A stretch of DNA of 64,000 bases, taken from NCBI RefSeq assembly GCF_041080625.1, contig NZ_CP163518.1, forward strand, positions 930,001 to 994,000. The letters run 5' to 3'. How positions within the stretch are numbered: the stretch's first letter is position 1; the number at the start of each line of letters is the position of its first letter. Positions 2,132 through 59,127 of the stretch are shown piece after piece. The DNA is from Streptomyces sp. CG1. Its GTDB lineage: Bacteria; Actinomycetota; Actinomycetes; Streptomycetales; Streptomycetaceae. Position numbers and translations under genes: made by a program. The notes under the pieces were generated by a model. It saw only the letters and a list, made by a program, of their open reading frames with translations, searched no databases and was not told the DNA's origin.

Positions 2132-2162
2132 TTTTGAACGCGTTCAAAAATGCGGGTACGCT
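2132..2162 (+). promoter_or_regulatory. Palindromic operator fused to a promoter
   Basis: TTTTGAACGCGTTCAAAA (2132-2149) is a perfect 18-bp palindrome. It contains TTGAAC (2134-2139), which with TACGCT (2157-2162) at a 17-bp spacing makes a good -35/-10 pair for the epimerase starting at 2188. A dimeric repressor bound here would block the -35 box. The divergent TetR gene is the obvious candidate regulator, although the site does not look like a classical ARE box. Confidence 0.6.
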
Positions 2163-2187
2163 GTGCGCACCGAACCGAGGGGGCTCG

Positions 2188-3183
2188 ATGAAGGTAGTTC
2201 TGCCTGGGGGAACCGGTCAGGTCGGCACGGTTCTCGATCGTGCGCTGACGGCTGCCGGTCATGAGGTCACCGTGCTGACGCGGCGACCGGTGCGCACGCG
2301 GGAAGTCGGCTGGGACGGGGTCACGCTCGGCCGCTGGGCCGAGGTGGTCGACGGCAGCGATGTCGTGATCAACCTGGCCGGACGCAGCGTCTCTTGCCGC
2401 TACACCCCCGAGAACCTGCGGGCCATGATGGATTCGCGGGTGGACTCGGCACGTGTGGTCGGGGAGGCGATCGCGGACGCCGCGCGGCCACCGCGGGTGT
2501 GGCTGCAGATGAGTACGGCGACGATCTACGCCCACCGCTTCGACGCGGCGAACGACGAGGCGACGGGGGTGATCGGCGGCTCGGAGGCCGGAGTTCCGGG
2601 CTACTGGGCCTACAGCGTCGACATCGCGAGGAACTGGGAGCGGGCGCAGGCCGAGGCGTCGACACCGGCGACCCGGAAAGTGGCGCTGCGCTCGGCGATG
2701 GTGATGAGCCCGGACCGGGGCGGGGTGTTCGACGTCCTGCTGGGTTTGGCCCGGCTGGGGCTCGGCGGGCCGGTCGCGGGCGGCGCGCAGTACGTCTCCT
2801 GGATCCATGACCAGGACTTTGTACGCGCCGTGGAGTTCCTGATCGACCGGGACGACATCGACGGGCCGGTGAACCTCGCCTCCCCCGGCCCGCTACCGCA
2901 GCGGGACTTCATGCGAGCGCTGCGCGCGGCCCGGGGCGTCCCCGTGGGGCTGCCGGCCACGCGGTGGATGGCCGAGCTGGGCGCGTTCGCGCTGCGCTCG
3001 GACACGGAACTGCTGCTCAAGAGCCGCCGGGTGGTGCCGGGTCGGTTGCGGGAGGCCGGGTTCGGTTTCCTGTATCGCGCATGGCAGCCGGCCGCATTGG
3101 ACCTCGTCCAGCGGGTCACGTTGTCCCGTGCGGGCCGCCTCCGCCGGGTGGCAGCGGAAGCGGAGTCCGGGCGGCGGACCTGA
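2188..3183 (+). CDS. TIGR01777-type NAD(P)-dependent epimerase
   Basis: 331 residues from ATG 2188, preceded by GAGGGGG. The N-terminal Rossmann motif is MKVVLPGGTGQVGTVL; the first Gly (G-G-T-G-x-x-G) lies at residues ~7-13. Later motifs are VINLAGRSVSCRYTPENL, YWAYSVDIARNWE, the family signature ALRSAMVMSPDRGGVFDVL and VSWIHDQDF. These define the YfcH/SULA-like TIGR01777 group of extended short-chain dehydrogenases, whose substrates are unknown. It has its own palindromic promoter and runs convergent to the isonitrile synthase. A paralogue lies at 12893. Substrate cannot be named. Confidence 0.85.
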   Translation: MKVVLPGGTGQVGTVLDRALTAAGHEVTVLTRRPVRTREVGWDGVTLGRWAEVVDGSDVVINLAGRSVSCRYTPENLRAMMDSRVDSARVVGEAIADAARPPRVWLQMSTATIYAHRFDAANDEATGVIGGSEAGVPGYWAYSVDIARNWERAQAEASTPATRKVALRSAMVMSPDRGGVFDVLLGLARLGLGGPVAGGAQYVSWIHDQDFVRAVEFLIDRDDIDGPVNLASPGPLPQRDFMRALRAARGVPVGLPATRWMAELGAFALRSDTELLLKSRRVVPGRLREAGFGFLYRAWQPAALDLVQRVTLSRAGRLRRVAAEAESGRRT

Positions 3184-3244: not shown

Positions 3245-4180
3245 TCAGCCCTGGCGGAAGTGGCTCGGTCTGCCGTCGGCCGTCACCAGCCGGCCCAGCT
3301 GTGCGGCTCTGGCGCGCGGCATCAGTGTCCAGGTTCCGTCCGCTCGCTGCAGGGCGGCCGAGTGCCAGGGGGTGGTCCAGGCGTCCGGTGCGTCCAGGAG
3401 GCGGATGCCGAACTTCGCGGCGCCGACCGGCTGGGGGTGGATGGACAGTCGTACGGCGGCCGGATGGTGTTCGGCGATCAGGGCGCCCCAGGCGCGGCTG
3501 CGCTGCAGGACGCCGTACGCCCGCTGCCGGCACGCGCGTTGGAGCGCGGAGCGGGTCCCCGGGAAGTCGGCGGTGTCCTCGACGAGGAAGCGTGTGACGC
3601 CCCGGTACAGGGCGCGTGTGTGGTCATCCGTGTGCACCTCGGCTCGCAGGGCCTCGACGCTGGGCGCGTGGTGCCGGTGGAGGTGGCAGCGTTTCCTGTC
3701 GTACGACAGGTCGCCCGGCACGTCGCGCAGGTCGAAGACGGACAGCCTGGTGAGGCCCAGGCCGGTGATGAGGCCGCGCAGTTCGTCGGCGTAGGCGTCG
3801 ATGTGGGGGTCGGGGACGTGGATGACGTCGCCGAAGACATGTCCGTCGGAGCAGATGACGATGCGGGCGCCGGGCGGGTGGATCCGCTCGATGTCGGTGC
3901 AGAGCCGGTGCAGGAAAGTGAGGGAGAGGCGTTCGCCCTGGTCGGGCAGGTGGCCCAGCACTTTGGCCGGGTTGGGGGACTTGCAGGGGAAGCCGGGGAG
4001 AGTGAAGACGACCGGGGCGCCGCGGCGGACGAAGTCGGCGATGCGGCGCAGCTGGTGCGGGAATGCCGTAACGGACGCGGGAGCCGCCGGGTCGGTGGTG
4101 CGGTGGTGGGGCAGGAGCAGGCCCAGGATGGCGGCGCTCGTGGTCGTGATGTGTGTGTCCGGCGCGGTCGCCAGTGGCAT
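3245..4180 (-). CDS. Isonitrile (isocyanide) synthase, PvcA/DIT1 family
   Basis: 311 residues. The family blocks LPGFPCKSPN (61-70), KVLGHLPDQGERL, RIVICSDGHVFGD (107-118) and the C-terminal RLSIHPQ are typical of pyoverdine/dityrosine biosynthesis proteins of the PvcA/IsnA type, which turn the alpha-amino group of Tyr or Trp into an isonitrile using ribulose-5-phosphate. ATG 4180 has GGAG six bases upstream. It lies 63 bp downstream of a P450, as in many isonitrile clusters, where the P450 or a 2-oxoglutarate oxygenase modifies the product. No 2-oxoglutarate oxygenase (PvcB/IsnB) is seen. The gene itself appears intact, although its upstream partner has been rearranged. Confidence 0.88.
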   Translation of the reverse strand: MPLATAPDTHITTTSAAILGLLLPHHRTTDPAAPASVTAFPHQLRRIADFVRRGAPVVFTLPGFPCKSPNPAKVLGHLPDQGERLSLTFLHRLCTDIERIHPPGARIVICSDGHVFGDVIHVPDPHIDAYADELRGLITGLGLTRLSVFDLRDVPGDLSYDRKRCHLHRHHAPSVEALRAEVHTDDHTRALYRGVTRFLVEDTADFPGTRSALQRACRQRAYGVLQRSRAWGALIAEHHPAAVRLSIHPQPVGAAKFGIRLLDAPDAWTTPWHSAALQRADGTWTLMPRARAAQLGRLVTADGRPSHFRQG

Positions 4181-4243: not shown

Positions 4244-5497
4244 TCACAGGCGGCGGTCGTAGCCGGCCGGCAGGTGATGGGTGCCGCGGCCGAGGACCGC
4301 CGGGATCCACTGGATCTCGTCGTCCGGGATGGCGAGGCGGAGGCCCGGAAGCCGGGTCAGGAGCGTGCCGAGGGCGATCTGGAGTTCGGCGCGGGCGAGG
4401 GCCGCGCCGGGGCAGAAGTGGATGCCGTGGCCGAAGGCGAGATGCGGGTTGGGGGTGCGGTCGAGGTCGAGGGTGTCGGGGTCGGGGAAGCGGCGCGGGT
4501 CGCGGTTGGCGGCGCACAGGGACACGATCACGGAGTCCCCAGCCGGGACCCGGGTGCCGTGCAGATCGCTGTCCTGGTCGAAGAAGCGCCAGGTGGTGAG
4601 CTCGAAGGCGCTGTCATGACGGAGGAGTTCCTCGACCGCGCGGGGCAGCAGGGAGAGGTCGTCGACAAGCCGGGCGAGCTGGCCCGGGTTGCGGAACAGG
4701 GCGATCAGGGCGGTGGTGATCTGGTTGGTGACCGGTTCCTGGCCGGCGACCAGGAGCTGGAAGATCATCGAGTCCAGTTCCTCCTGGGACAGTTCGCCCT
4801 GGTCGCAGGCCGCGACGAGGCGGCTGAGGAGGTCGTCCTCCGGGTGTGCGCGTTTGTCGGCGACGACCTCGGCGATGTAGCTATGCAGGCCGTGCAGACG
4901 GGCCTCGTACGACGGACGGCCCGGGTCGGTCGGGCCGACCGGCTGGACCACCTTGCCCCAGTCGCGGTCGAAGCGGGCGGCCAGTTCCTGGGGCAGGCCG
5001 ATGACCTCGGCCAGCACCTGGAAGGGGAAGTGTGCCGCGAAACCGCCGACCAGGTCGGCGGGGCCGGTGTCGGGCAGGGCGTCGACGAGCCGGTGGGCCA
5101 ATTCCTCCATCCTCGGACGGAGTTGTTCGATCCGGCGTGGTGTGAAGGCGTCGGTGACGAAGCGCCGCATACGGGTGTGCCGCGGCGGGTCCTGATGCAG
5201 CAGATGGACCTGGAGCTGCGAGTGCTGCGGCTCGGGCATGATGGAGGCGCGGGCGCGCCAGCGGTCGTTGCCCCGGTCGTGGTTCTTGCCCAGCCGGTCG
5301 TCGTTGAGGGCGGCGTGGGCGGCGTCGTATCCGGTGACGAGCCAGGCCTGTACGCCGCTCGGGAAGAGCACGGGGTGGACCGGACCGGCCTCGCGCATCC
5401 GCTCGTAGAGCGGGTAGGGGTCGGCCTTGTAGGGGCAGCCCGTGAGGGGGACGGGTTCCTGCGTGTCCGTGGTGATCGTCGGTTCGTGGCGGGTCAC
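4244..5497 (-). CDS. Cytochrome P450
   Basis: 417 residues from GTG 5497; GGAG lies 8 bases upstream and the previous stop is 11 bp away. The heme-binding loop FGHGIHFCPGAALARAEL carries Cys362, the ExxR pair is E290/R293, and HQDPPRHTRMRR is present. The I-helix reads LLVAGQEPVTNQ (249-259): Gly and acid are kept, but the usual oxygen-activating Thr of AGxxT is replaced by Pro254-Val255. Such changes occur in P450s with unusual chemistry or substrate-assisted catalysis. It sits between an asparagine-synthetase remnant and the isonitrile synthase, probably in one transcript, so an isonitrile or its precursor is the likely substrate (inference). Confidence 0.88.
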   Translation of the reverse strand: MTRHEPTITTDTQEPVPLTGCPYKADPYPLYERMREAGPVHPVLFPSGVQAWLVTGYDAAHAALNDDRLGKNHDRGNDRWRARASIMPEPQHSQLQVHLLHQDPPRHTRMRRFVTDAFTPRRIEQLRPRMEELAHRLVDALPDTGPADLVGGFAAHFPFQVLAEVIGLPQELAARFDRDWGKVVQPVGPTDPGRPSYEARLHGLHSYIAEVVADKRAHPEDDLLSRLVAACDQGELSQEELDSMIFQLLVAGQEPVTNQITTALIALFRNPGQLARLVDDLSLLPRAVEELLRHDSAFELTTWRFFDQDSDLHGTRVPAGDSVIVSLCAANRDPRRFPDPDTLDLDRTPNPHLAFGHGIHFCPGAALARAELQIALGTLLTRLPGLRLAIPDDEIQWIPAVLGRGTHHLPAGYDRRL

Positions 5498-5508
5498 GTT
5501 CGGGCTCC

Positions 5509-6604
5509 TCACAGGGCGAGTTCGGGTCGGTGGTGGTCCAGCCACAGGGCGAGTTCGGGTCGGTGGTGGTCCAGCCACAGGGCGAGGTCGACGACGCGTT
5601 CCAGGCGCAGGCGGTGGCCCCACCGGAGTCGGTCGGGCGGGGTGTCGAGGCAGGGTTTGATGCGGGCCTCGTCGGCCAGGGCGCGTACCTGCGGTTCGGC
5701 GAGGGCATCCCGGGCCAGCTGTTGCAGGCCGCGGTTGTAGTCGGGGTGGTGGGTGGCCGGGTAGTGGTTCTTGGGCCGGTGCAGGACCGAGTCGGGGGCC
5801 AGGCCGGCGCCCATGGAGCGCAGCAGGCTCTTCTCCCGGCCGTCGTGACGCTGCAGCGACCAGGGCGCGTTGAAGGCGTACTCGACCAGCCGGTGGTCGC
5901 AGTACGGGACGCGTACCTCCAGGCCGCGTGCCATGCTCAACCGGTCTTTGCGGTGCAGGAGTTGCCGCAGCCAGCGGGTCAGCGACAGATGCTGCAGCTC
6001 GCGTCGCCGGTGCTCGGCCGGCGTCTCGTCGTCGAGGTGCGGTACGGCCACCAGGGCGCTGCGGTAGATGTCGGCGCGGAACTCGCCGATACGCAGGTCG
6101 AGTTCGGGGTTGAGGGGCATGGCGGCCTCGTCTCCGGTCACCAGCAGCCAGGGGAAGGTGTCGGCGGCGAGGGCCTTCGGGTCGTGGAACCAGGGGTAGC
6201 CGCCGAACACCTCGTCCGCGGCCTCTCCGGACAGAGCCACCGTGGAGTGCCGGCGGATCTCGCCGAACAGCAGGTACAGCGAGGTGTCCATGTCGCCGAC
6301 GCCGATGGGCGAGTCCCGGGCCACGACCACGGCCGTGCGGTGCTCGGGGTCGAGCAGGGCGCGGGGCACGCGCAGCTGCCAGACGATCAGGTCGTCGGTG
6401 CCGGGCCGGGGCGCGTCACCGGTCAGTCTGCGGCCGATCACCTGCCACACCTGGGCGGGCGGGACGGACGTCGGCCCCCAGGCCACGGCCGCCGTGAGGG
6501 ACGCGAGCAGGACGACGGTCAGGACCAGCAGCAACGGCCCGGCGGGCAGTGCGCGCGCCGTCGGCGACGGCCGCGTCCTCGCGCTGTGACAGAGCGGAGC
6601 GCAC
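5509..6604 (-). pseudogene. FecCD permease start fused to asparagine-synthetase-like C-terminus (deletion chimera)
   Basis: The first part is a metal-siderophore ABC permease start: GTG 6604 overlaps the end of the binding-protein gene and gives VRSALSQREDAAVADGARTA. A one-base shift near 6540 leads to PLLLVLTVVLLASLTAA and QVWQVIG...WQLRVPRAL. At about 6345-6365 the protein jumps in frame to an AsnB-like synthetase domain: ARDSPIGVGDMDTSLYLLF, STVALSGEAADEVFGGYPWF, LLHRKDRLSMARGLEVRVPY. The rest of the permease, any ATPase gene, the glutaminase domain with its Cys nucleophile and the SGGxDS ATP loop are absent. Neither activity can remain. The simplest reading is a deletion between a transporter operon and an asnB-P450-isonitrile synthase operon; misassembly is the alternative. 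Confidence 0.75.
5510..5586. repeat. 33-bp tandem duplication at a gene end
   Basis: A 33-bp unit occupies 5511-5543 and recurs exactly at 5544-5576, followed by ten bases of a third copy (5577-5586). On the minus strand it encodes LALWLDHHRPE twice at the C-terminus of the synthetase remnant. It ends at the stop, just before the P450 ribosome site. It looks like a recent slippage or duplication event that kept the frame. Confidence 0.85.
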
Positions 6605-6606
6605 GG

Positions 6607-7680
6607 CTAGCCGACCTTGGCGGGGTAAAGGGTGCGGGCGATCTCCCGGACGGTGTCGGCGTTCTCGACGCCGGCGATGGTGGTCCGCTCGGAGCCGATC
6701 CGGAGGAAGTGCCCTGCCTTGACGGCCTTGAGGCCCTTGGTGGCCGGGTTGGCCTTCAGCCACTGTTCGGCCTCGTCGAACGCCTTCTGGTTCGCCGCCG
6801 CGCTGCCCCGGTCGCGCACGCCGAGCTGGATCCAGTCGGGGTTCTTGGCGATGAAGTCCTCCCAGCCGACCTGCCGGTAGTCGCCCGCGCAGTCGGCGAA
6901 GGCGTTGCGGGCGCCCGCGAGGGTGATCACGGCGTTGGCGACCTGGCGGTCGCAGACGACGGTGGGCTGCTTGGTACCGGCGTCGTAGTCGAAGAAGAAG
7001 TACGTCGGACGGGCGCTCCGCGCGGCGTCGCCGATCGCCTTCTGCACCGCGTCGACCGTCTTCCGCATCCCGGCGACGAGTTCCTTCGCCCGTGCGCCGG
7101 TGCCGGTGACCGCGCCGAGGGTGGTGCTGTCCGACTCGACGCCCGTCAGGTCGGTGACCGGCTTCCTGCTCCGCGCGGCGCAGGCGGTGGACTTCAGGTA
7201 GATGTGCTTGATGCCGGCCGCCTTGAACTCGTCCTCTCTCGGCGTGTCGCCCATCCCGCCGCCGCCCATGCCGCCCATGGCGGCGAACGTGTCGAGGTAG
7301 AGGTCGGCGCCGGAGCCGAGCAGCTTCTCCTTCGGGATGACGCTCCGGCTGAGCACCGTGACCTTGCGGGCCTGTGCGTCGAGGGCACCGGGCAGTGTGC
7401 CCTTGCCCGGCGGGAACCCGGTACCGATCACCCGGTCCCTCGCCCCCAGGCGCAACAGCAGCTCCAGCCCCGCGGCATTGCTGGTGACGATCCTCTCGGC
7501 GGCCTTGGCGAAGGTCGTCCGGGCACCGGCGCAGTCGGTCACGGTCACCGGGTAGCCACCGGATCCGGCAGTCCCCGGGCTGTCGTCCGCGGCGTCCTCC
7601 TTCGCACCGCCGCCGCAGCCCGCCACCAGCAGGGCGCCCAGTACGACGGCCGTCGTACCGCCCCACACACGAGAACGCAT
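6607..7680 (-). CDS. Iron-siderophore ABC transporter substrate-binding lipoprotein
   Basis: 357 residues. The signal peptide ends in the lipobox LLVAGCGGG, so Cys22 would be lipidated and the protein anchored outside the membrane. The mature part is a class III periplasmic-binding fold: VTVTDCAGARTTFAKAAERIVTSN, GLELLLRLGARDRVIGTGF and DWIQLGVRD. The closest type is FepB/FhuD/BtuF. A Met/Gly-rich insert (GGMGGGGMGD) lies near residue 145. GGGAG stands eight bases before ATG 7680. Its permease partner directly downstream is broken and no ATPase follows, so it can no longer be part of a locally encoded transporter. No DtxR/IdeR iron box was seen upstream. Confidence 0.85.
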   Translation of the reverse strand: MRSRVWGGTTAVVLGALLVAGCGGGAKEDAADDSPGTAGSGGYPVTVTDCAGARTTFAKAAERIVTSNAAGLELLLRLGARDRVIGTGFPPGKGTLPGALDAQARKVTVLSRSVIPKEKLLGSGADLYLDTFAAMGGMGGGGMGDTPREDEFKAAGIKHIYLKSTACAARSRKPVTDLTGVESDSTTLGAVTGTGARAKELVAGMRKTVDAVQKAIGDAARSARPTYFFFDYDAGTKQPTVVCDRQVANAVITLAGARNAFADCAGDYRQVGWEDFIAKNPDWIQLGVRDRGSAAANQKAFDEAEQWLKANPATKGLKAVKAGHFLRIGSERTTIAGVENADTVREIARTLYPAKVG

Positions 7681-7708
7681 CGAACAACTCCCGGATCCAC
7701 TCGGTACA

Positions 7709-7798
7709 CGGGTGAACCTCCGTCACCCGGTCCAGTAGTCGGGGCGGACGTGCCGGGAGTTCCCGCGCTCTGCCGATCCGGGTGATCCGGAGATCCGG
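7709..7798. promoter_or_regulatory. Leader hairpin and GATCCGG repeats upstream of the binding protein
   Basis: CGGGTGA and TCACCCG (7709-7715 and 7723-7729) form a perfect 7-bp stem around a 7-nt loop, which on the minus-strand transcript contains GGAGG. Farther upstream GATCCGG occurs three times at 8-9 bp spacing (7775, 7784, 7792). These may be promoter or regulator sites of the lipoprotein gene; no known motif was recognised. Confidence 0.3.
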
Positions 7799-7827
7799 TT
7801 CGGAAGGCGACGCCGGTGACCCGATCA

Positions 7828-7867
7828 GGAGGGTGACGCCGATCGTGTACGCGCGGCGTCACCCTCC
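7828..7867. terminator. Strong hairpin terminator after the ECF sigma gene
   Basis: GGAGGGTGACGCC (7828-7840) and GGCGTCACCCTCC (7855-7867) pair perfectly over 13 bp with a 14-nt loop, 8 bp beyond the sigma factor stop at 7875. No T-tract follows, which is usual for high-GC actinomycete terminators. Confidence 0.75.
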
Positions 7868-7874
7868 GGGCGGC

Positions 7875-8525
7875 TCAGGCCGCCGGCGCGGCGGCCGTCC
7901 GCTCTTCCCTCACTGCCTGAAGGGCGTGGGAGGTGCCCCCATCGTCGAGCAGGTCCATCAACGTCGCCCGGGCACGAGCCACTCGGGAGCGGACCGTGCC
8001 GACGGGACAGGCGCTGACCTCGGCGGCCTCCGCATAGGGCAGGCCGAGCAGCTGGGTGAGGACGAACGCCTCCCGGCGCTCGTCCGGCAGACAGGCCAGC
8101 AGGTCCAGCAGGGCGACGCCGTCGTCGAATCCGGGCAGGCCCCGCGGCTGGGCCGACTCCACCGCCAGCTGCCAGTCCGGCACGTCGGACAGCCGGGGCC
8201 GCGAGGCGGCGTACCGGTAGCTGTCGATCACCGCGCGGCGCGCGATGGACAGCAGCCAGGCGCGCGCCGAGGAGCGGCCCTCGAAGCGGTGCAGGCTGCT
8301 GATCGCGCGCAGGAAGGTGTCCTGCGCGAGGTCGTCGACGGCCTGGGGATCGGTGCAGAGGTGGGCGACATAGCACTGGACGTCGCGGTGCAGGGCACGG
8401 ACGAAGTGCTCGACCGCGTCCGCGTCACCACTGCGGGCGGCCAGCGCCCATGCGGTTATGGACTCGTCGGGAGATGCCGCTGGGTCGTATGCGGTCCGCG
8501 CTGCGGGCAGGACAGGAGTGATCAC
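7875..8525 (-). CDS. ECF-type RNA polymerase sigma factor
   Basis: 216 residues from GTG 8525 (AAGGA eight bases upstream). Region 2 reads AVEHFVRALHRDVQCYV...DDLAQDTFLRAISSLHRFEGRSSARAWLLSIAR. Region 4 reads ACLPDERREAFVLTQLLGLPYAEAAEV...PVGTVRSRVARARATL. Both are typical of ECF sigma factors close to the SigC/SigL group. No classical anti-sigma factor (ZAS domain) follows; transcription ends at the hairpin just downstream. It is the last gene of a minus-strand series that begins with copper genes, so a role in metal or envelope stress is possible but unproven. Confidence 0.88.
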   Translation of the reverse strand: MITPVLPAARTAYDPAASPDESITAWALAARSGDADAVEHFVRALHRDVQCYVAHLCTDPQAVDDLAQDTFLRAISSLHRFEGRSSARAWLLSIARRAVIDSYRYAASRPRLSDVPDWQLAVESAQPRGLPGFDDGVALLDLLACLPDERREAFVLTQLLGLPYAEAAEVSACPVGTVRSRVARARATLMDLLDDGGTSHALQAVREERTAAAPAA

Positions 8526-8758
8526 CTGGTGTCCTTCTCGGGTCAACCGTGACCGGACCGGGGCGCGGGTGAGCGCGAGCGGTCCGGTGAGTGAGGAGAC
8601 GGCCCTACGGCGCGCGACGACACAGGTGTGCTGCGGTACGAGAGCGCCTGGGCACATCGGTGCCACGGCACAGAAGTACGGCGACCCGGAGGTGCTGCGG
8701 CGCGTGCGCGGACGTACGACCGTGGCCCGAGGCGCGCAGGGGCGGCCCCGGGATACCG

Positions 8759-8777
8759 GCTGTCGTCAGGCGACAGC
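8759..8777. terminator. Hairpin overlapping the stop of the Met-rich membrane protein
   Basis: GCTGTCG and CGACAGC form a 7-bp stem around TCAGG; the loop includes the stop codon of the gene ending at 8766. It may terminate or attenuate transcription running from the copper genes toward the sigma gene. Confidence 0.35.
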
Positions 8778-9467
8778 GGTCCCCACGGGTGGCCCGCGCG
8801 AGGTGATCGCATGGACGAGGAGGTCCAGGCTCGGCGCCCGGTCGGAACGGGGCCGGCAGAGCCGCTGGTCCGGACGTTCGCCGGGGACGGGCAGGGCCAG
8901 CAGCAGCCGCAGCGGGGCTGCCAGCCATCCGGCCACGGCCCGCAGGATGCGGAAGGCGGCCTTCTCGCCGTACGCCAGCCAGAGCCCGGTGAGGAGCGCG
9001 GCCAGCAAGTGGGCGGCGGCCATCCCGAACGACGACCCGTCGCCGACGCCAAGGGAATGCCCCAGGTGCTGCAGGGGATTCATGGAGGCGTGCCCCATGT
9101 GGCCCATATCCATGGAGTCCATAGAGCCCATGGGCATGGAGCCCATGTCCCCCCTCCCCATGTGCATGGCCATACCCGCGTGTCCGGACGCCATCGGCGA
9201 GGTGCTCCCGGAAACCGACTGGGCGAGGGAGAACGCCGAGTGCAGTGCCGTTTGGGCGACGACCACGAGCGGCACGATCAGCCGCGGCCCGCGCTCACGC
9301 CCCGTCAGGCACCAGCCCACCGTGCCGGTGGCGAGGAGACCGGCGGCCAACGCCCAGGCGGGCACGTCCCGGCCGGACATCAGGACGTGGCCGAGGGCGG
9401 CGAGCACGACACAGACGGCCGCGAACACCGCGGCCCGGACCGTGCGCGAACCCCACCCTGCTGTCAT
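8766..9467 (-). CDS. Integral membrane protein with Met/His-rich extracytoplasmic loop
   Basis: 233 residues from ATG 9467, with GGGAGG upstream. Three membrane segments at residues ~10-35, 38-60 and 68-92 come first. A loop (~95-150) follows that is packed with about a dozen Met and several His (pattern GMAMHMGRGDMGSMPMGS and onward), then one or two more segments (~155-200). With the N-terminus inside, the Met-rich loop lies outside the membrane, as in copper-handling proteins. The family is not recognised. It lies downstream of CopA and the PCuAC-like gene and upstream of the ECF sigma gene on the same strand. Copper binding or sensing is an inference from composition and position. Confidence 0.7.
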   Translation of the reverse strand: MTAGWGSRTVRAAVFAAVCVVLAALGHVLMSGRDVPAWALAAGLLATGTVGWCLTGRERGPRLIVPLVVVAQTALHSAFSLAQSVSGSTSPMASGHAGMAMHMGRGDMGSMPMGSMDSMDMGHMGHASMNPLQHLGHSLGVGDGSSFGMAAAHLLAALLTGLWLAYGEKAAFRILRAVAGWLAAPLRLLLALPVPGERPDQRLCRPRSDRAPSLDLLVHAITSRGPPVGTAVA

Positions 9468-9630
9468 CGGGGCCCATCCTCCCATCCCGGCGTGCGCCGC
9501 CGTACGGAGGTACGGCATACGCCCCTCCCCCGCACTCACCGCACCGGACGTGATACACGTCACCGAGGAGGGCCGGGAACCATCAGGCCGCCGCATACGA
9601 CCTCTGAGGAAGAAGAGATCTGCGGGTTCG

Positions 9631-10173
9631 TCAGGCGGCGCCGTCGCCCGGCCGGACCACCACGGCGAGCGTGCGCACCGCCCCGCTGTGTGCGAAGTGC
9701 AGCGTGAACGGCACGAGGTCGCCCACGCGCCACCCAGGGCACGCCCGCAGTGTCACGGCCGGTCCGCGCGGCGACATGGCCACCGCGCCGCCCGCGGGAA
9801 CGGGCATGGAGTCCACAACGTCCCGGTACGCGGCCGTACGGCCGCGCATCCGGTGCCGGCTGAGGCCGATGTCCCCGCCGGTGCGGGAGGACGTGACCCG
9901 GACCAGCCGGTCGTCCGCGCCGCCGCTGTTGGCGACGGCGAAGAAAGCGGCCGTCTCGGTCGTGCCGCCATAGGGCAGCAGGACCCGCCCGGAGGTGACG
10001 GCGATCCGGGCCGGCCGGCCCGCCTGGCCCGCCGTCACCCAGGTGGTCAGGCCGGCCAGCGCAAGAGCGGAGGCGGCCACGGGTGCGAGTGCGGCTAGCA
10101 GGGCGTCGGTCAGCCGACGGCGCGTGGGCCGCCACGAGGGGCCGGCCGCACCGTCGGTCGTGCGGGTGGTCAT
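9631..10173 (-). CDS. PCuAC-like copper chaperone with one membrane anchor
   Basis: 180 residues. An N-terminal hydrophobic segment (ALLAALAPVAASALALAGLTTW, shown here to locate residues 26-46) would export and anchor a domain with the PCuAC/DUF461 pattern: FFAVANSGGADDRLVRVTSS, SRHRMRG (His107, Met109), DSMPVPAGGAVAM and VPFTLHF. In typical PCuAC proteins a His and Met in the 'YHVM' strand complete the Cu(I) site; here that strand reads PAVTL, so two ligands seem lost. ATG 10173 overlaps the copA stop by four bases, giving tight coupling. Role: probably periplasmic copper transfer, perhaps weakened or using other ligands. Confidence 0.75.
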   Translation of the reverse strand: MTTRTTDGAAGPSWRPTRRRLTDALLAALAPVAASALALAGLTTWVTAGQAGRPARIAVTSGRVLLPYGGTTETAAFFAVANSGGADDRLVRVTSSRTGGDIGLSRHRMRGRTAAYRDVVDSMPVPAGGAVAMSPRGPAVTLRACPGWRVGDLVPFTLHFAHSGAVRTLAVVVRPGDGAA

Positions 10174-12419
10174 CGAGCGGTCCTCCGGGCGGGGGCGGGC
10201 TGCCAGGCGCGCAGCTGCAGGCTGTGGCCGACGACCAGCAGGGAGCTGGCCGACATGGCCGCCGCGGCGAGCATGGGGTTGAGCAGGCCGGTCATGGCGA
10301 GCGGGACGGTGACGGCGTTGTAGCCGAAGGCCCGCGCCAGATTGGCGCGGATCGTGCCGAGCGTGCGGCGGGCCAGCCGTACCGCGTCGGGAAGCGCATC
10401 GATGTCGCCGCGGACGAGCGTCACGTCGGCGGCCCCGATCGCGACGTCCGTGCCGCCGCCGAGCGCGATGCCCAGGTCGTCGCGGGCCAGGGCGGCCGCG
10501 TCGTTGACCCCGTCGCCGACGACCGCCACACGGCAGCCCTGTTCCTGCAGCTCGCGCACGAGCCGGGCCTTGCCCTCGGGAGTGCAGCGGGCATGGACCT
10601 CCTCGATGCCCAGCTCCGAGGCGACGGCGGTGGCGGGCCCTTCGCGGTCGCCGGTGGCGAGCACCGGGCGGATGCCGAGGCGCCGCAGCCGGTGGACGGC
10701 CCGGTAGCTGCCGGAGCGCACGACGTCCCCGACATCGATCAGGGCCTCGGCCACGCCGTCCACACGGACGAGCACGGGGGTGTGCCCGGCGGCCTCGGCG
10801 AGCGGCAGCGCCTCGGCGAGCGAGGCGGGCAACTCCCCGTCGGGAGCCACGACTTCGACCAGCCGCCCCTCGACCCGACCCTGCACCCCGAGCCCCGGCT
10901 CGGCCCTGAACTCCGCCACCTCCGGCAGCCCGCTCGTACCCGCGTGCGCCACGATCGCCCGCCCCAGAGGGTGCTCCGAGCCCTGTTCGACAGCCCCGGC
11001 CAGGCGCAGTACCGTCCCGCTGCCGAGTCCCTTCGGTACGGCGGTGACCCGGGCGACGGTCATCCGGCCCGAGGTGAGCGTGCCGGTCTTGTCGAGGACG
11101 ACCGCGTCGAGGTGGCGCAGCCCCTCCAGTGCCTGCGGGCCGGTGACGAGCACGCCGAGCTGGGCGCCCCGGCCGGTCGCCGCCATCAGGGCGGTCGGGG
11201 TCGCCAGTCCGAGCGCACACGGGCAGGCCACCACGAGCACGGCCACGCACGCGGTGACGGCCGCCTGCGGATCGGCTCCGGCGCCCAGCCAGAATCCGAG
11301 TGTCGTGACGGCCAGCACCAGGACGACCGGCACGAACACACCGGCCACGGCATCGGCCAGCCGCTGCGCCCGCGCCTTGCCGGTCTGGGCCTCGGTCACC
11401 ATCCGCGTGATGTGGGCGAGCCGGGTGTCGGCGCCGACCGCCGTGGCCCGGACGAGCAACAGTCCCCCGCAGTTGAGGGCGCCGCCGACCACGGCCGCGC
11501 CCGGCCCGACCTCGACGGGCTCGCTCTCGCCGGTCACCAGGGAGAGGTCCACCGCGGAACTGCCCTCCACCACCTCCCCGTCGGTGGCGAACCGCTCCCC
11601 GGGACGTACGACGAAGACGTGACCGACCTCCAACTCCTCAGCAGGGATCAGCCGTTCGGTACGGCCCTCGCGTACAGCCACTTCCTTGACCGTGAGCCCG
11701 GCGAGCGAGCGCAGGGCCGCTCCGGTGCCCCGCCGGGCCCTGGCCTCCAGGTACCGGCCCGCCAGCACGAACAGCGGTACGCCGACGGCGGCTTCCAGGT
11801 AGAGGTGCGCGGCCCCGTCCGTCGCGGACGGCACCAGGGTGAACGGCATACCCATCCCGGGAGCACCCGCGCCGCCGAGGAACAGCGCGTACGCCGACCA
11901 GGAGAAGGACGCCGTGACACCGAGAGAGACGAGCGTGTCCATGGTCGCGGCCGCATGCCGGAGCCCGCGCAGCGCCCGTACGTGGAAGGGCCAGGCTCCC
12001 CACACGGCGACGGGCGCGGCCAGGACGAAGCACAGCCACTGCCAGTTCCGGAACTGCCAGGCCGGCACCATCGACAGCAGCAGTACCGGCACCGCGAGCA
12101 GCGCGGTGATCAGCAGCCGGTCCCGTTCCCGTCCTCCCCCGACGGTCTCGTCATCGTCGTCGTGCGCGTTGTGCCGTTTCTTCACCGGCTCGGGGAGTTG
12201 GGCGGTGTAACCGGCCTTCTGTACGGCCGCGACGAGTTCGGCCGGGCCGATGTGCGGCGGATGACTGACCCGGGCGCGTCCGGTGGCCAGGTTGACGGTC
12301 GCCGTGACGCCGTCGAGCCGGCCGAGCTTCTTCTCGACGCGCTGGACGCAGGCCGCGCAGGTCATGCCGCCGACGGTCAGGTCGGTCGTCGTCACGGGGG
12401 CGGCGGATTCCGTGGTCAT
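10170..12419 (-). CDS. copA: Copper-exporting P1B-type ATPase
   Basis: 749 residues from ATG 12419. It has one N-terminal heavy-metal domain with GMTCAAC (Cys21, Cys24) and eight predicted membrane segments. ATPase motifs are TGES, the metal-channel ACPCALGLATP, DKTGTLT with the phosphorylated Asp, the conserved SEHP and GDGVNDAAALA. TM7 carries YN and TM8 MSASS, the Cu(I) pattern of subgroup P1B-1. It pumps Cu(I) out of the cytoplasm. Both ends overlap neighbours by four bases (ATGA), with a Met-rich small protein before and the PCuAC-like protein after, so the three are translated together. No CsoR or CopZ gene is adjacent. Confidence 0.93.
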   Translation of the reverse strand: MTTESAAPVTTTDLTVGGMTCAACVQRVEKKLGRLDGVTATVNLATGRARVSHPPHIGPAELVAAVQKAGYTAQLPEPVKKRHNAHDDDDETVGGGRERDRLLITALLAVPVLLLSMVPAWQFRNWQWLCFVLAAPVAVWGAWPFHVRALRGLRHAAATMDTLVSLGVTASFSWSAYALFLGGAGAPGMGMPFTLVPSATDGAAHLYLEAAVGVPLFVLAGRYLEARARRGTGAALRSLAGLTVKEVAVREGRTERLIPAEELEVGHVFVVRPGERFATDGEVVEGSSAVDLSLVTGESEPVEVGPGAAVVGGALNCGGLLLVRATAVGADTRLAHITRMVTEAQTGKARAQRLADAVAGVFVPVVLVLAVTTLGFWLGAGADPQAAVTACVAVLVVACPCALGLATPTALMAATGRGAQLGVLVTGPQALEGLRHLDAVVLDKTGTLTSGRMTVARVTAVPKGLGSGTVLRLAGAVEQGSEHPLGRAIVAHAGTSGLPEVAEFRAEPGLGVQGRVEGRLVEVVAPDGELPASLAEALPLAEAAGHTPVLVRVDGVAEALIDVGDVVRSGSYRAVHRLRRLGIRPVLATGDREGPATAVASELGIEEVHARCTPEGKARLVRELQEQGCRVAVVGDGVNDAAALARDDLGIALGGGTDVAIGAADVTLVRGDIDALPDAVRLARRTLGTIRANLARAFGYNAVTVPLAMTGLLNPMLAAAAMSASSLLVVGHSLQLRAWQPAPARRTAR

Positions 12420-12658
12420 CGGCCGGCTCCCCCGTGCATCCCGCCCATGTCCATGCCGCCGTCGCCGTCGCCGTCCCCCGTACGGCCGGGGCTCGTGCCG
12501 TGCATGCCGGGGGCGACGGGCCCGGCGGCCGCGCCAACGGCATGGGCCACCGTGAACATCACCGCCAGCAGCAGGAGGAAGCCGCACAGGGCGGGCGGCG
12601 GTACGGCCTTGCGCCACACCGTTCCCCCGCCCGAGGCGGATTGCCGGGACTCGTCCAT
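12416..12658 (-). CDS. Small single-pass Met/His/Gly-rich membrane protein
   Basis: 80 residues from ATG 12658 (GGAG nine bases before). One hydrophobic segment (CGFLLLLAVMFTVAHAVG, ~residues 26-45) is followed by an outward tail rich in Gly, Asp, Met and His (GMHGTSP, GGMDMGGMHGG). Such tails bind copper in several unrelated families. Its stop overlaps the copA start, so it is the first gene of the copper operon. No named family was recognised. Presumed role: presenting or buffering copper near the ATPase. Confidence 0.65.
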   Translation of the reverse strand: MDESRQSASGGGTVWRKAVPPPALCGFLLLLAVMFTVAHAVGAAAGPVAPGMHGTSPGRTGDGDGDGGMDMGGMHGGAGR

Positions 12659-12808
12659 CAACCGCGTCTCCAGGTCCAGTCGTCCGGCGGCGGCCGGATG
12701 GCGCCGCAACGATTCAGGAGTCGGGCCGTGGAGCGGGCGAGTTCCGGTGGGCGCTCGTGGCTCCGGTCACTCGACGGGCACCCTGACGCGCCCCCCCCGG
12801 ACCTTTAC

Positions 12809-12860
12809 TTGAACTTACAAGCACTCCATGTATCGTGCAGCATGATTCAAATTTGAATCA
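12809..12860 (+). promoter_or_regulatory. Promoter with 18-bp palindromic operator
   Basis: TTGAAC (12809-12814), a 16-bp spacer and TATCGT (12831-12836) form a promoter for the epimerase at 12893. Just downstream TGATTCAAATTTGAATCA (12843-12860) is a perfect palindrome that would cover the transcription start. The arrangement parallels 2132-2162, where another TIGR01777 gene is controlled by a palindrome with the same TTGAAC box. Confidence 0.6.
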
Positions 12861-12892
12861 GCCGCCGGCACGAAGCTCCTCGGGAGGACGCC

Positions 12893-13807
12893 ATGCGCGT
12901 CGCGATCACCGGGTCCACCGGACTCATCGGCTCCGCCCTCACCCGCTCGCTCCTCATGGACGGCCACCGGGTCGTCCGCCTCGTCCGCGACCGGTCCGCC
13001 GCCGCTCCTCGGGACGGCAGCGCGTCCGCCGGATGGGACCCGGTCGCGGGCCGGGTCGAACCCGGCGCACTGGACGGCGTCGACGCCGTCGTCCACCTGG
13101 CCGGCGCGGGAGTCGGCGACAAGCGGTGGACCGCCGCCTACAAGCAGGAGATCCACGACAGCCGGGTACGGGGCACCGACACGATCGCGCGGGCGTGCGC
13201 CGCCTCGGCCGAGCCGCCGCGGGTCCTGGTGTCCGCGTCCGCGACCGGCTACTACGGCGACACCGGCGAACGGACCGTCGACGAGAGCGAGTCCGCGGGG
13301 CAGGACTTCCTGTCCCGCGTCTGTGTCGACTGGGAGGCGGCGGCCGACCCTGCCCGGCAGGCCGGCATCCGTGTGGTGCACCCACGCACCGGCCTGGTCG
13401 TCTCCGCCGAGGGAGGCGCCTTCGGGCGTCTCTTCCCGCTGTTCCGCCTCGGTCTGGGCGGCCGGCTCGGCTCCGGTGACCAGTACTGGCCGTTCATCTC
13501 GCTGACGGACCACATCGCGGCGCTCCGCTTCGCCCTCGACGCCGAGCAACTCTGCGGGCCCGTCAACTTCACGGCACCCGAGCCGCTCACCAACCGCGAG
13601 GTGACCCGGGCGCTGAGCCGCGCCCTGCACCGCCCGGCGCTCGCCGCCGTACCCTCCTTCGCCCTGCGCGCGGCACTCGGCGAGTTCGCCGCGAGCATCA
13701 CGTGCAGCGCACGCGTCGTACCGGCAGCCCTGCACAAGGCGGGGTTCGCCTTCGCTCACCCGACGATCGACGGAGCGGTCGACTCCGTGCTGCGACCGGC
13801 CGATTGA
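12893..13807 (+). CDS. TIGR01777-type NAD(P)-dependent epimerase (second copy)
   Basis: 304 residues; GGAGG five bases before ATG. The Rossmann motif MRVAITGSTGLIGSALTRSL and the family markers VVHLAGAGVGDKRW, VSASATGYYGDTGERTVDE, VVHPRTGLVVSAEGGAFGRL and WPFISLTDHIAAL are all present. Unlike the copy at 2188, it keeps a classical GYYG...-like catalytic region with Tyr. It is divergent from the copper operon across about 230 bp. Substrate unknown; many genomes carry several copies. Confidence 0.87.
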   Translation: MRVAITGSTGLIGSALTRSLLMDGHRVVRLVRDRSAAAPRDGSASAGWDPVAGRVEPGALDGVDAVVHLAGAGVGDKRWTAAYKQEIHDSRVRGTDTIARACAASAEPPRVLVSASATGYYGDTGERTVDESESAGQDFLSRVCVDWEAAADPARQAGIRVVHPRTGLVVSAEGGAFGRLFPLFRLGLGGRLGSGDQYWPFISLTDHIAALRFALDAEQLCGPVNFTAPEPLTNREVTRALSRALHRPALAAVPSFALRAALGEFAASITCSARVVPAALHKAGFAFAHPTIDGAVDSVLRPAD

Positions 13808-13964
13808 GGGTTTCGCGGCGGGGCCGAGCGTCGCACCCGCCCCGGGTGCGCGACCCGATGCCGTCGGTCACGCCGGGTGCGGGAACGGCCGCAGCGCGGG
13901 ACGATGGTCGTCCGGGTGCCCGGGAACGGGGCCCGCCCGGAAGACGGGTGATGAGGAGGTTGCC

Positions 13965-14834
13965 GTGTGCCGGCTGTTCGGGCTGATCAGCTCCCCGCTT
14001 CGCACGCACGCCACGTTCTGGCTGCTGGACGCCCCCGACAGTCTCAGCGCGCAGAGTCACCGCGAACCCGACGGCACCGGGCTCGGGTACTACGACGCGG
14101 ACGGCACCCCGGAGGTGCACAAGGCACCGATCGCCGCCTACGAGGACCGCGCCTTCGCCCAAGAAGCCCGCGAGGTGGAGTCGGCCACCTTCCTCGCGCA
14201 CATCCGGTACGCGTCCACCGGCGGGCTGGAGCTGCGCAACACGCACCCCTTCGAGCAGCACAGGCGGCTGTTCGCGCACAACGGTGTGATCGAGGGGCTG
14301 GACGCGCTCGACCGCCAACTGGACGAGGACCGCTCACTGGTGCGCGGCGACACCGACTCCGAGCGCTTCTTCGCGCTGGTGACGCGGGAGACCGCGGCGC
14401 ACGGCGGGGACGTGTCGGCCGGCCTCGTCGCCGCGGCACGCTGGGTCGCCGCGAACCTGCCCCTGTACGCCCTGAACGTCATCCTCGTCACCACCCGTGA
14501 GCTGTGGGCCCTGCGCTATCCCGACACGCATGAGCTGTATGTGCTGCGGCGGCCGGCCGGAGGTCACGGGGGATCGCGGCATCTGGACCACACCGGCCGG
14601 GGCGGCCGGCTGCGGGTGCGCTCGGCGCATCTGGGAACCGTTCCGTCCGTCGTCGTGGCCAGCGAGCGCATGGACGAGAGCCCGCACTGGCAGCTCATGG
14701 AGCCGGGAGCGTTGCTCCATGTGGGCCCCGAGCTCGAGGTGACCTCCCGCATCGTCCTGCCCGATCCTCCGGCCCACCTGCTCACCCTGTCCGACCTGCG
14801 TCCCGAGGCGGCGGCCTCCCAGCGGCCCGCGTAG
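13965..14834 (+). CDS. Class II glutamine amidotransferase (GATase_4, EgtC-like)
   Basis: 289 residues from GTG 13965, with GAGGAGG upstream. Removal of the initiator exposes Cys2 (sequence CRLFGLISSPLRTHATFW), the N-terminal nucleophile of class II glutamine amidotransferases. QSHREPDGTGLGYYD, FLAHIRYASTG and FAHNGVIEG form the glutamine site. EgtC-type proteins hydrolyse a gamma-glutamyl amide in ergothioneine synthesis, but no egtB or egtD is nearby. Stand-alone homologues are frequent in Streptomyces with unknown substrates, so the specific role is open. Confidence 0.82.
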   Translation: MCRLFGLISSPLRTHATFWLLDAPDSLSAQSHREPDGTGLGYYDADGTPEVHKAPIAAYEDRAFAQEAREVESATFLAHIRYASTGGLELRNTHPFEQHRRLFAHNGVIEGLDALDRQLDEDRSLVRGDTDSERFFALVTRETAAHGGDVSAGLVAAARWVAANLPLYALNVILVTTRELWALRYPDTHELYVLRRPAGGHGGSRHLDHTGRGGRLRVRSAHLGTVPSVVVASERMDESPHWQLMEPGALLHVGPELEVTSRIVLPDPPAHLLTLSDLRPEAAASQRPA

Positions 14835-57957: not shown

Positions 57958-59127
57958 GTGGTGGGCGATGCGCGTCGGCGGGCGGCCGGGCCGGGCTGCG
58001 GGCGCCGCAGGGGGCGGGCGCCGGGCAGCCGGCCGGCGTACACCGTGCGGCGCGCGGCCGCCCCGCGCCCCGGGCCGGTGCCGGCGGCCGCGCGGGTGGT
58101 GCCCTGGCTGAGCATCGGGGCGGCCTACGCCTGGCGGCTCATCCTCATCGGGATCGTCGTCTACGGCGTCTTCAGCGTCCTCGGCAGTTTCCAGCTCATC
58201 GCCGTCGCCCTCTTCCTCGCGCTGATCGTCACGTCCGTACTGCGCCCGCTGGCCGACCTGCTCAACCGTGTCCTGCCGCGGCCGTTGTGCGTCGCCGTGG
58301 CACTGGTGGGCAGTCTGCTGCTCCTGCTGGCCCTGCTCGCCCTCGTGGGCAACGCGGTGGCCGGCGAGTCGGCGCGGCTGGCCGGTGAGTTCCGCGGCGG
58401 GGTGCACCGTATCGAGGAGTGGTTGCGCCGGCCGCCGTTCCGGCTGAGCCCGAGCCGGCTGGCCGAGTTGGAGAACCAGGTGACGCGCTACCTCTCGGCG
58501 CACCGCGCCAGCCTGCTCAGCCGCGCCGTCAGCGGCCTGGGCCGGGTCGTCGAGGTGGTCACCGGGGTGGCGCTCGCACTGTTCTCCTCGGTGTTCTTCA
58601 TCCATTCCGGCGAGCGTTTGTGGGGCTGGATCCGCGACCACGCGCTGCCGAGCGGCGCCCGTCCGGCGTGGGACCGGGCGGGGCGGGCGGCATGGCGGGC
58701 CTTCGCCGGGTACACGCGCGGCATCATCATCGTGGCCGCCACCAATGCCGTGCTCGTCGGCATCGCCCTGCTCGTGCTGCGGGTGCCGCTCGCGCTGCCG
58801 CTGACGCTGCTGGAGTTCTTCGCCACGTTCGTGCCGCTGGTGGGCTCGCCGGTCGCGCTCGGCGTCGCCACGGTCGTCGCGCTGGCCGGGCGCGGGCCGA
58901 TCACGGCGTTGGCCGTACTGGCGCTGATCGTCGTGATCGGCCAGTTGGAGGGCCATGTGCTGCATCCGCTGGTGATGAGCTGGGCGGTACGGCTGCACCC
59001 GCTCGTCGTCGCCGTGTCGGTGATCGCGGGCAGCATCATCGCGGGGGTGATCGGTGCCGTGGTGGCCGTGCCGCTGGTCTCGGTCGTCTGGGCGGTACTG
59101 CGGGCCTTGCGTGCGGTGCCGCGGTGA
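57958..59127 (+). CDS. AI-2E/UPF0118 family permease
   Basis: 389 residues from GTG 57958 (GGAGG just before). A basic Arg/Ala/Pro-rich N-terminus of ~45 residues precedes eight membrane segments: AWRLILIGIVVYGVFSVLGS, ALFLALIVTSVLRPLADLLN and LIVVIGQLEGHVLHPLVMSW (family signature Q-x-E-x-x-x-x-P). Family members transport small molecules or Na+/H+; substrate here unknown. Confidence 0.85.
   Translation: MVGDARRRAAGPGCGRRRGRAPGSRPAYTVRRAAAPRPGPVPAAARVVPWLSIGAAYAWRLILIGIVVYGVFSVLGSFQLIAVALFLALIVTSVLRPLADLLNRVLPRPLCVAVALVGSLLLLLALLALVGNAVAGESARLAGEFRGGVHRIEEWLRRPPFRLSPSRLAELENQVTRYLSAHRASLLSRAVSGLGRVVEVVTGVALALFSSVFFIHSGERLWGWIRDHALPSGARPAWDRAGRAAWRAFAGYTRGIIIVAATNAVLVGIALLVLRVPLALPLTLLEFFATFVPLVGSPVALGVATVVALAGRGPITALAVLALIVVIGQLEGHVLHPLVMSWAVRLHPLVVAVSVIAGSIIAGVIGAVVAVPLVSVVWAVLRALRAVPR

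Follow-up and report, generated by a model that had tools for sequence, protein, structure and literature searches.

A permease–AsnB fusion in Streptomyces sp. CG1 as a deletion scar within a second, probably hazimycin-type copper-chalkophore locus, and a promoter core apparently shared with other isonitrile loci

A stretch of 64,000 nucleotides from Streptomyces sp. CG1 (NZ_CP163518.1, positions 930,001 to 994,000; hereafter the window) holds an open reading frame that begins as a FecCD permease and continues into the C-terminal part of an amidotransferase resembling AsnB, about half of that protein, close to genes for a cytochrome P450 and a PvcA/DIT1-type isocyanide synthase. Such a frame raises the questions of which pathway the surrounding genes belong to, how this pathway would be switched on, and whether the fusion itself is a working gene or a scar.

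The locus is read on the minus strand between 12745 and 3245, in the order Met/His-rich protein, CopA, PCuAC-type protein, MetR, SigC-like sigma factor, binding lipoprotein, permease/AsnB remnant, P450 and PvcA/DIT1. A promoter core, GGAAC-N17-CGAC, was located by motif search before the copA operon (12720–12745), of which the first gene (12416–12658) encodes a small Met/His-rich membrane protein of 80 amino acids, assigned by eye, with a similar frame preceding CopA in a second locus of the same genome, L008. It is followed by a CopA-type copper P-type ATPase (10170–12419; NCBIfam TIGR01511, 482 bits against a cut-off of 397; 81–82% identical to L008), a PCuAC-type copper chaperone (9637–10173; 67% to L008) and the Met/His-rich membrane protein MetR (8766–9596; 68% to L008). 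NCBIfam returned no match for the PCuAC-type protein of the window or for MetR (8766–9473); a homologue of the former in the locus L211 (61% to L008) matches PF04314. A SigC-like ECF sigma factor of uncertain start (7875–8528; NF007231, below cut-off) lies before a second core (7738–7763), which precedes the importer operon beginning with a FecB/BtuF-type binding lipoprotein (6607–7680; PF01497, 59.4 bits against a cut-off of 27.5; 78% to L008). Beyond the fused frame, the P450 (4244–5497, start uncertain; PF00067; 85% to L008) and PvcA (3245–4180; PF05141, 249.7 bits) are both open frames by the ORF list and Pfam, in line with the original prediction; those of the binding lipoprotein, the SigC-like sigma factor and CopA are open as well. 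Two similar NAD-dependent epimerase-like genes, recognized by eye, flank the locus on the plus strand (2134–3183 and 12893–13807).

L008 (C1:5665001–5685000) agrees with the window in the order of the genes that both carry. Its permease (from 8006), ATPase, MFS exporter, AsnB (12249–14075), P450 and PvcA are all full-length, and its AsnB retains the MCG start, the GATase_7 domain and the SGGIDS loop. PF05141 was matched by the PvcA of both copies, and the P450 gene is beside that of PvcA in both. Since copper genes, namely those for CopA, the PCuAC-type protein and the Met-rich protein, were found at both copies, copper rather than iron is the metal to be considered, and a siderophore for iron, which the siderophore-type importer of the original prediction might suggest, was rejected on these grounds.

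In the intact locus, PvcA would turn tyrosine into its isonitrile, AsnB would amidate the carboxylate of the tyrosine isonitrile, and the P450, by comparison with yeast DIT1–DIT2, would couple two phenols; the MFS protein would export the resulting di-isonitrile, which would bind Cu(I), and the binding protein–FecCD–ATPase importer would take the copper complex back. From the joint presence of PvcA, AsnB and P450, the product would be a di-isonitrile of tyrosine that is both amidated and phenol-coupled; this we take to be the structure of hazimycin. Hazimycin biosynthesis is reportedly treated by Matsuda et al. in 2024 (J Antibiot 77:228; doi 10.1038/s41429-024-00706-6), with the compound said to be an actinobacterial chalkophore. 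PvcA, P450 and amidotransferase with importer and exporter would fit the hazimycin structure and its reported biosynthesis; unlike that pathway, the window copy has no working AsnB, permease, ATPase or MFS protein, all of which are present in L008. In yeast, a P450 is the partner of DIT1, and the PvcA/DIT1 enzyme is common to the present loci, the yeast pair and the fungal isocyanide synthase clusters, although we know of no AsnB, importer or SigC-like sigma factor in the latter two. For the fungal clusters, a link to copper is described in PMC9381783.

By its title as cited in PMC11085572, the 2024 paper of Matsuda et al. presents hazimycin biosynthesis as that of an actinobacterial copper chalkophore. 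The P450–PvcA–AsnB set with its importer fits this published pathway, so that the locus would be known in kind, and the notion of an undescribed metallophore, as first put forward, was rejected on that citation. With good confidence, we regard the window as containing a copper-chalkophore locus of hazimycin type, presumably under SigC-like control, that is the second copy in the genome and is decaying.

Seven genes (binding protein, FecCD, ATPase, MFS, AsnB, P450 and PvcA) were compared across 80 named loci, the best 80 of 154 chosen by PvcA. The complete set at 75% coverage or more was found in 51 of these 80. Complete loci thus exist, and the CG1 genome itself carries one, which bore out the expectation that Streptomyces genomes carry contiguous binding protein–FecCD–ATPase–AsnB–P450–PvcA loci. 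A further 13 had all but AsnB, suggesting that amidation is not universal, and the remaining 16 include two from Archangium and several cut at contig ends. Among 392 Streptomyces genomes, PvcA was matched in 86 and an orthologue of the binding protein was found in 74, of which 67 also had a PvcA match against 16 expected; importer and synthase thus go together across Streptomyces genomes. Full-length AsnB orthologues (at least 74% identity, the next listed being at most 55%) were found in 48 of the 392, a count that leaves out the partial orthologues of G265, G003 and G333.

The 13 loci devoid of AsnB alone bear on the alternative that hazimycin is not the product and that the locus instead makes, say, a tyrosine isonitrile lacking the amidation or the coupling, or a compound resembling rhabduscin or xanthocillin. 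This alternative also draws on the window PvcA, which scores about 275 bits against NF045653 (L-tyrosine isonitrile synthase), under the curated cut-off of 600, and on the P450, which reaches no NCBIfam cut-off. We hold it to be a possible but clearly less probable outcome, given that AsnB, P450 and PvcA would be the simplest combination of enzymes to yield coupled tyrosine isonitriles in diamide form and that the hazimycin paper, by its title as cited in PMC11085572, concerns actinobacteria.

As to how such a hazimycin-type pathway would be switched on, the promoter core was first seen by eye in intergenic stretches of L008 and the window, and these two loci are thus not independent evidence for it. 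In L008, the longer form GGAACTC-N15-CGACT precedes the copA operon, the binding protein gene, the MFS gene and a CopZ-like gene (the last by eye). When the spacer was allowed to vary from 11 to 18, this form gave 104 matches in 113 loci (including duplicates such as L109/L137 and L058/L149), 98 of which had a spacer of exactly 15, against 0 to 3 matches in five first-order Markov sets; 42 of the 104 stood before the gene of the binding protein (SBP), 32 before MFS, 10 before CopA and 20 elsewhere. The short core was scored from −350 to +30 of the gene start, with L109 left out as a duplicate of L137, in a survey where some loci may be strains of one species. It was present before 92 of 94 SBP genes (70/71 in Streptomyces-type and 22/23 in Kitasatospora-type loci) and 62 of 77 MFS genes (42/57 and 20/20, respectively, leaving 15 Streptomyces-type MFS genes without it), with about 0.004 expected for each, and before CopA in 13 of 14 Streptomyces-type and one of six Kitasatospora-type loci. 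Meanwhile, it was never found before the genes for the permease (0/94), P450 (0/85), SigC (0/61), MetR (0/24) or YcnI (0/3), and rarely before those for the ATPase (1/94), PvcA (1/87), AsnB (2/66) or PCuAC (1/19). The importer operon and the exporter/biosynthesis operon therefore appear to share one promoter core, which is new as far as our literature search reached.

The support for the core is positional, as no enrichment was observed across the genome: with both strands counted, the core occurs 220 times in Streptomyces sp. CG1 and the reversed control 218 times, which corresponds to about 0.004 per 380 bp of a single strand; in the surveyed loci, where the true sites contribute, the rate is 0.026. 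The longer motif gave 25 matches in this genome against 10 in the control; six of them lie in the two loci, and none of the other 19 was seen before a copper gene, with frames judged by eye. A lone GGAACTC-N15-CGACT occurs at 58368–58393 (−) of the window, with no clear target gene just downstream. The mycobacterial SigC consensus SSSAAT-N16-20-CGTSSS yielded no useful sites. In a literature search with the hazimycin paper and most subscription journals outside its reach, no SigC-type sigma factor was found reported at Streptomyces hazimycin or isonitrile-lipopeptide loci.

The sigma factor of the window has M. tuberculosis SigC as its best PDB match. Among 28 matches to NF007231 in the genome, the two locus sigma factors scored about 171.5 (up to 171.7 for the window protein) and 167.3 bits, and the next 61.7; since both are below the curated cut-off of 219, they are referred to as SigC-like. 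To our knowledge, M. tuberculosis has no PvcA pathway. Passages of PMC7924339 describe that induction of SigC in this organism raises ctpB and ppe1-nrp and that loss of sigC slows growth in copper-poor medium, in which no difference in ctpB was seen between the sigC mutant and its parent; further passages on SigC are found in PMC9600254. As far as those passages of PMC7924339 go, the M. tuberculosis regulon resembles the present case in the ECF subfamily, judged by best match, and in having a P-type ATPase and an isonitrile operon as targets. It differs in that the present sigma factors fall under the curated cut-off and that their control of the core-bearing operons is proposed from sequence. 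Under copper shortage, the SigC-like sigma factor would switch on the copA, importer and exporter/biosynthesis operons through GGAAC-N17-CGAC.

That the core belongs to another regulator is an unlikely alternative, slightly more so than a different product. It gains from the sub-threshold family score and from the fact that a SigC-like gene was not within the fetched stretch of every locus, but the two boxes with a fixed N17 have a sigma-like layout, the sigma gene sits between the copper and importer operons, and the core precedes the class of operon that M. tuberculosis SigC induces according to PMC7924339. Control by the SigC-like factor is the reading that we retain. Its link to isonitriles is not exclusive, since SigC-like sigma factors (E value of 1e-28 or better) were found in 75 of 106 Streptomyces genomes, many of which have neither a PvcA nor an FcoT match; Corynebacterium glutamicum also matched in this search.

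With FcoT (PF10862) as the marker for isonitrile-lipopeptide clusters, matches were obtained in 37 of the 392 Streptomyces genomes (36 over the cut-off) and none in Streptomyces sp. CG1. Thirty-five of 44 matching loci were fetched, 20 with and 15 without NRPS genes. Among the 20, 19 had their own SBP gene within the stretch and all 19 of these genes were preceded by the core, which also stood before CopA in six of nine cases; 12 of the 20 stretches showed a SigC-like gene. The 15 others showed no NRPS, SBP2, SigC or CopA match and contained six scattered cores. Altogether, the FcoT loci held 85 cores, against 89.5 expected at the enriched density of the hazimycin loci and about 13 at the rate of the CG1 genome. 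L211, ordered as CopA, PCuAC, Met-rich protein, SigC-like sigma factor, MFS, KASIII–TauD–FcoT–ligase–NRPS, binding protein and ATPase, illustrates the comparison with the isonitrile lipopeptide chalkophores of the SF2768/nrp type: it has the same chassis and promoter core, whereas its KASIII–TauD–FcoT–AMP ligase–NRPS pathway is unrelated to PvcA–P450–AsnB.

In 296 genomes of the class, FcoT was matched in five: two are Streptomyces, two (G539 and G589) come from a single further family, and G583 represents a third family. In the Mycobacteriales-like L237 (G539) and L238 (G589), the core precedes an operon of PPE-like and TauD-like (both by eye) and FcoT genes as well as an HMA-type gene (by eye), and in L237 also a P-type ATPase gene beside a SigC gene that exceeds the cut-off with 268.9 bits and lies 7.5 kb away from FcoT; the SigC of G589 (330 bits) lies on another contig. 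For G583 (L240), the best SigC match was 60.1 bits and the strict core was absent from the fetched stretch.

Stretches around SigC-like genes in genomes with neither a PvcA nor an FcoT match (40 stretches, from 41 of 46 matches) held 77 cores against 15 expected, which widens the regulon and weakens an isonitrile-only claim. In L251, L253, L255, L256, L257, L258 and L260, a divergent core pair 69 bp apart separates an acyl-CoA-dehydrogenase-like gene (by eye) from its neighbor, which in L260 is a CoA-transferase III (PF02515); SigC-like and Met-rich genes are near, and L258 has an AMP-binding gene and L260 an MFS gene. These loci could possibly represent a third, uncharacterized pathway of SigC type. 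L277 (G075, without PvcA or FcoT match) contains CopA, PCuAC, a SigC-like gene, a FecCD permease, an ATPase and a lipoprotein gene with the core upstream. PepSY_TM membrane proteins were also noted near SigC-type sigma genes in L237 (5336–6700, −) and L271 (5952–7364, +), in the latter with the core directly upstream.

The fused frame itself was confirmed as an in-frame ORF of 341 amino acids with a TTG start (5509–6534, −). Its AsnB part (5509–6350; 88% identical to L008 AsnB) was the only one matched by Pfam, as Asn_synthase (PF00733, positions 87–353 of 354); no FecCD match was obtained, and neither the glutaminase domain with its N-terminal Cys nor the SGGxDS loop was detected by Pfam or on reading the sequence. 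The permease part lies in a remnant (6364–6604) defined by comparison with L137, covers 18% of a permease and has lost the full transmembrane domain. A 2-nt frameshift near 6550 relative to L137 places the natural permease start out of frame, which makes the originally predicted start at 6604 doubtful. The AsnB remnant closes, at its 3' end, with 2.5 tandem copies of a 33-bp unit (5510–5590).

Comparison with L008 by blastn gave two blocks, window 4244–6366 with L008 15349–13251 (84.7%) and window 6351–9515 with L008 8258–5200 (77.5%), which overlap at window 6351–6366. The 13 bases at the junction (6351–6363) are present both in asnB of L008 and in the permease gene of L137, the latter being identical to the window up through these bases. 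Relative to L008, about 5.0 kb is absent, comprising most of the permease gene, the ATPase, CopZ-like (by eye) and MFS exporter genes, and the N-terminal half of AsnB with its glutaminase domain and SGGIDS loop. Because the same genome carries the complete locus, the fusion was shown to be a deletion scar: about 5.0 kb was lost between two 13-bp repeats, one in the permease gene and one in asnB; the deletion, and the missing permease remainder, ATPase, glutaminase domain and SGGxDS loop, had been correctly anticipated. Considering the frameshift, which leaves the natural start of the permease outside the fused frame, and the 33-bp repeat, the ORF is best read as a pseudogene in ordinary decay.

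A working chimera, with the AsnB half anchored in the membrane, could appeal to the open 341-aa frame across the junction and to the preserved identity to L008, but it would have to act without the glutaminase domain and the SGGxDS loop and begin at an internal TTG, and no other permease–AsnB junction, let alone the many homologues that would speak for such an architecture, was seen in the tblastn maps of the surveyed loci; we consider it highly improbable. Equally hard to credit is an assembly error, by collapse or mixing of the two related loci of one genome, given that the shared word is only 13 bp on a contig of 11.0 Mb, that both flanks differ from L008 by 15–23% while the permease piece is 89% identical to L137 (residues 15–61) and 73.8% to L008 (residues 20–61), so that the fusion is not a chimera of two copies, and that the nearby frameshift and tandem repeat fit decay.

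The deletion scar belongs to a separate lineage. In phylogenies built for the binding protein (89 rows; the bootstrap had not settled) and for PvcA, the window copy was sister to L137/L109, with support of 100/98 and 100/99, and L008 grouped with other species, apart from it. L137 (G146:C46) and L109 (Streptomyces sp. IMTB 2501), which have the same sequence in the trees, are broken by a different deletion, from the ATPase into the P450 gene, so that this second lineage appears to have decayed through different deletions in two genomes; Streptomyces sp. IMTB 2501 also carries a complete locus, L062, with a counterpart on C42 of G146.

Further broken copies were found in L058/L149 (binding protein into ATPase; MFS into AsnB), L094 (MFS into AsnB), L138 (permease into ATPase, a gap in MFS and a break in PvcA) and L162 (AsnB, P450 and PvcA all truncated). 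PvcA was not matched in seven of the 74 genomes that carry the binding protein, namely G106, G213, G223, G235, G329, G336 and G351. In L141–L147, the importer was present and the biosynthesis genes were absent; such importer-only strains may be cheaters. C-terminal pieces of PvcA in L151–L156 and L140, adjoined by CopA pieces in L140 and L151, are likely fossils of lost loci. In two Archangium loci (Myxococcota; L068 and L069), P450 and PvcA were the only members of the set within 10 kb, and their PvcA falls among Streptomyces rows in the tree, for which horizontal transfer is a likely explanation.

In five genomes (G301, G390, G348, G196 and G387), AsnB (L157–L161) has neither P450 nor PvcA beside it, and a P450–PvcA pair is located elsewhere (L196, L194, L195, L199 and L198, respectively), possibly representing a split pathway. 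On this precedent, the P450 and PvcA of the window could plausibly borrow the AsnB of L008; with AsnB and transporters supplied by the other copy, they would add dosage at most.

What had appeared as a puzzling fusion thus becomes a readable scar, with a working version in the same cell. Beyond Streptomyces sp. CG1, we lean, with moderate confidence, toward the view that Actinobacteria possess one portable copper-starvation chassis under a SigC-type sigma factor and GGAAC-N17-CGAC, consisting of CopA, PCuAC, the Met-rich protein, an exporter and the FecCD importer, into which varied metallophore pathways would be plugged, namely PvcA–P450–AsnB, TauD–FcoT–NRPS and perhaps a third with the divergent core pair, with producers decaying repeatedly to leave importer-only or remnant-bearing strains. 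One promoter word of fixed spacing was seen in two unrelated isonitrile pathways, and Mycobacteriales-like genomes have it at nrp-like loci; while the locus itself represents a known kind of chalkophore system, this sharing is the part most worth a bench test, and a cheap one, of how soil bacteria switch on isonitrile copper scavengers. If the chassis reading is true, the promoter core would serve as a search key for further copper metallophores.
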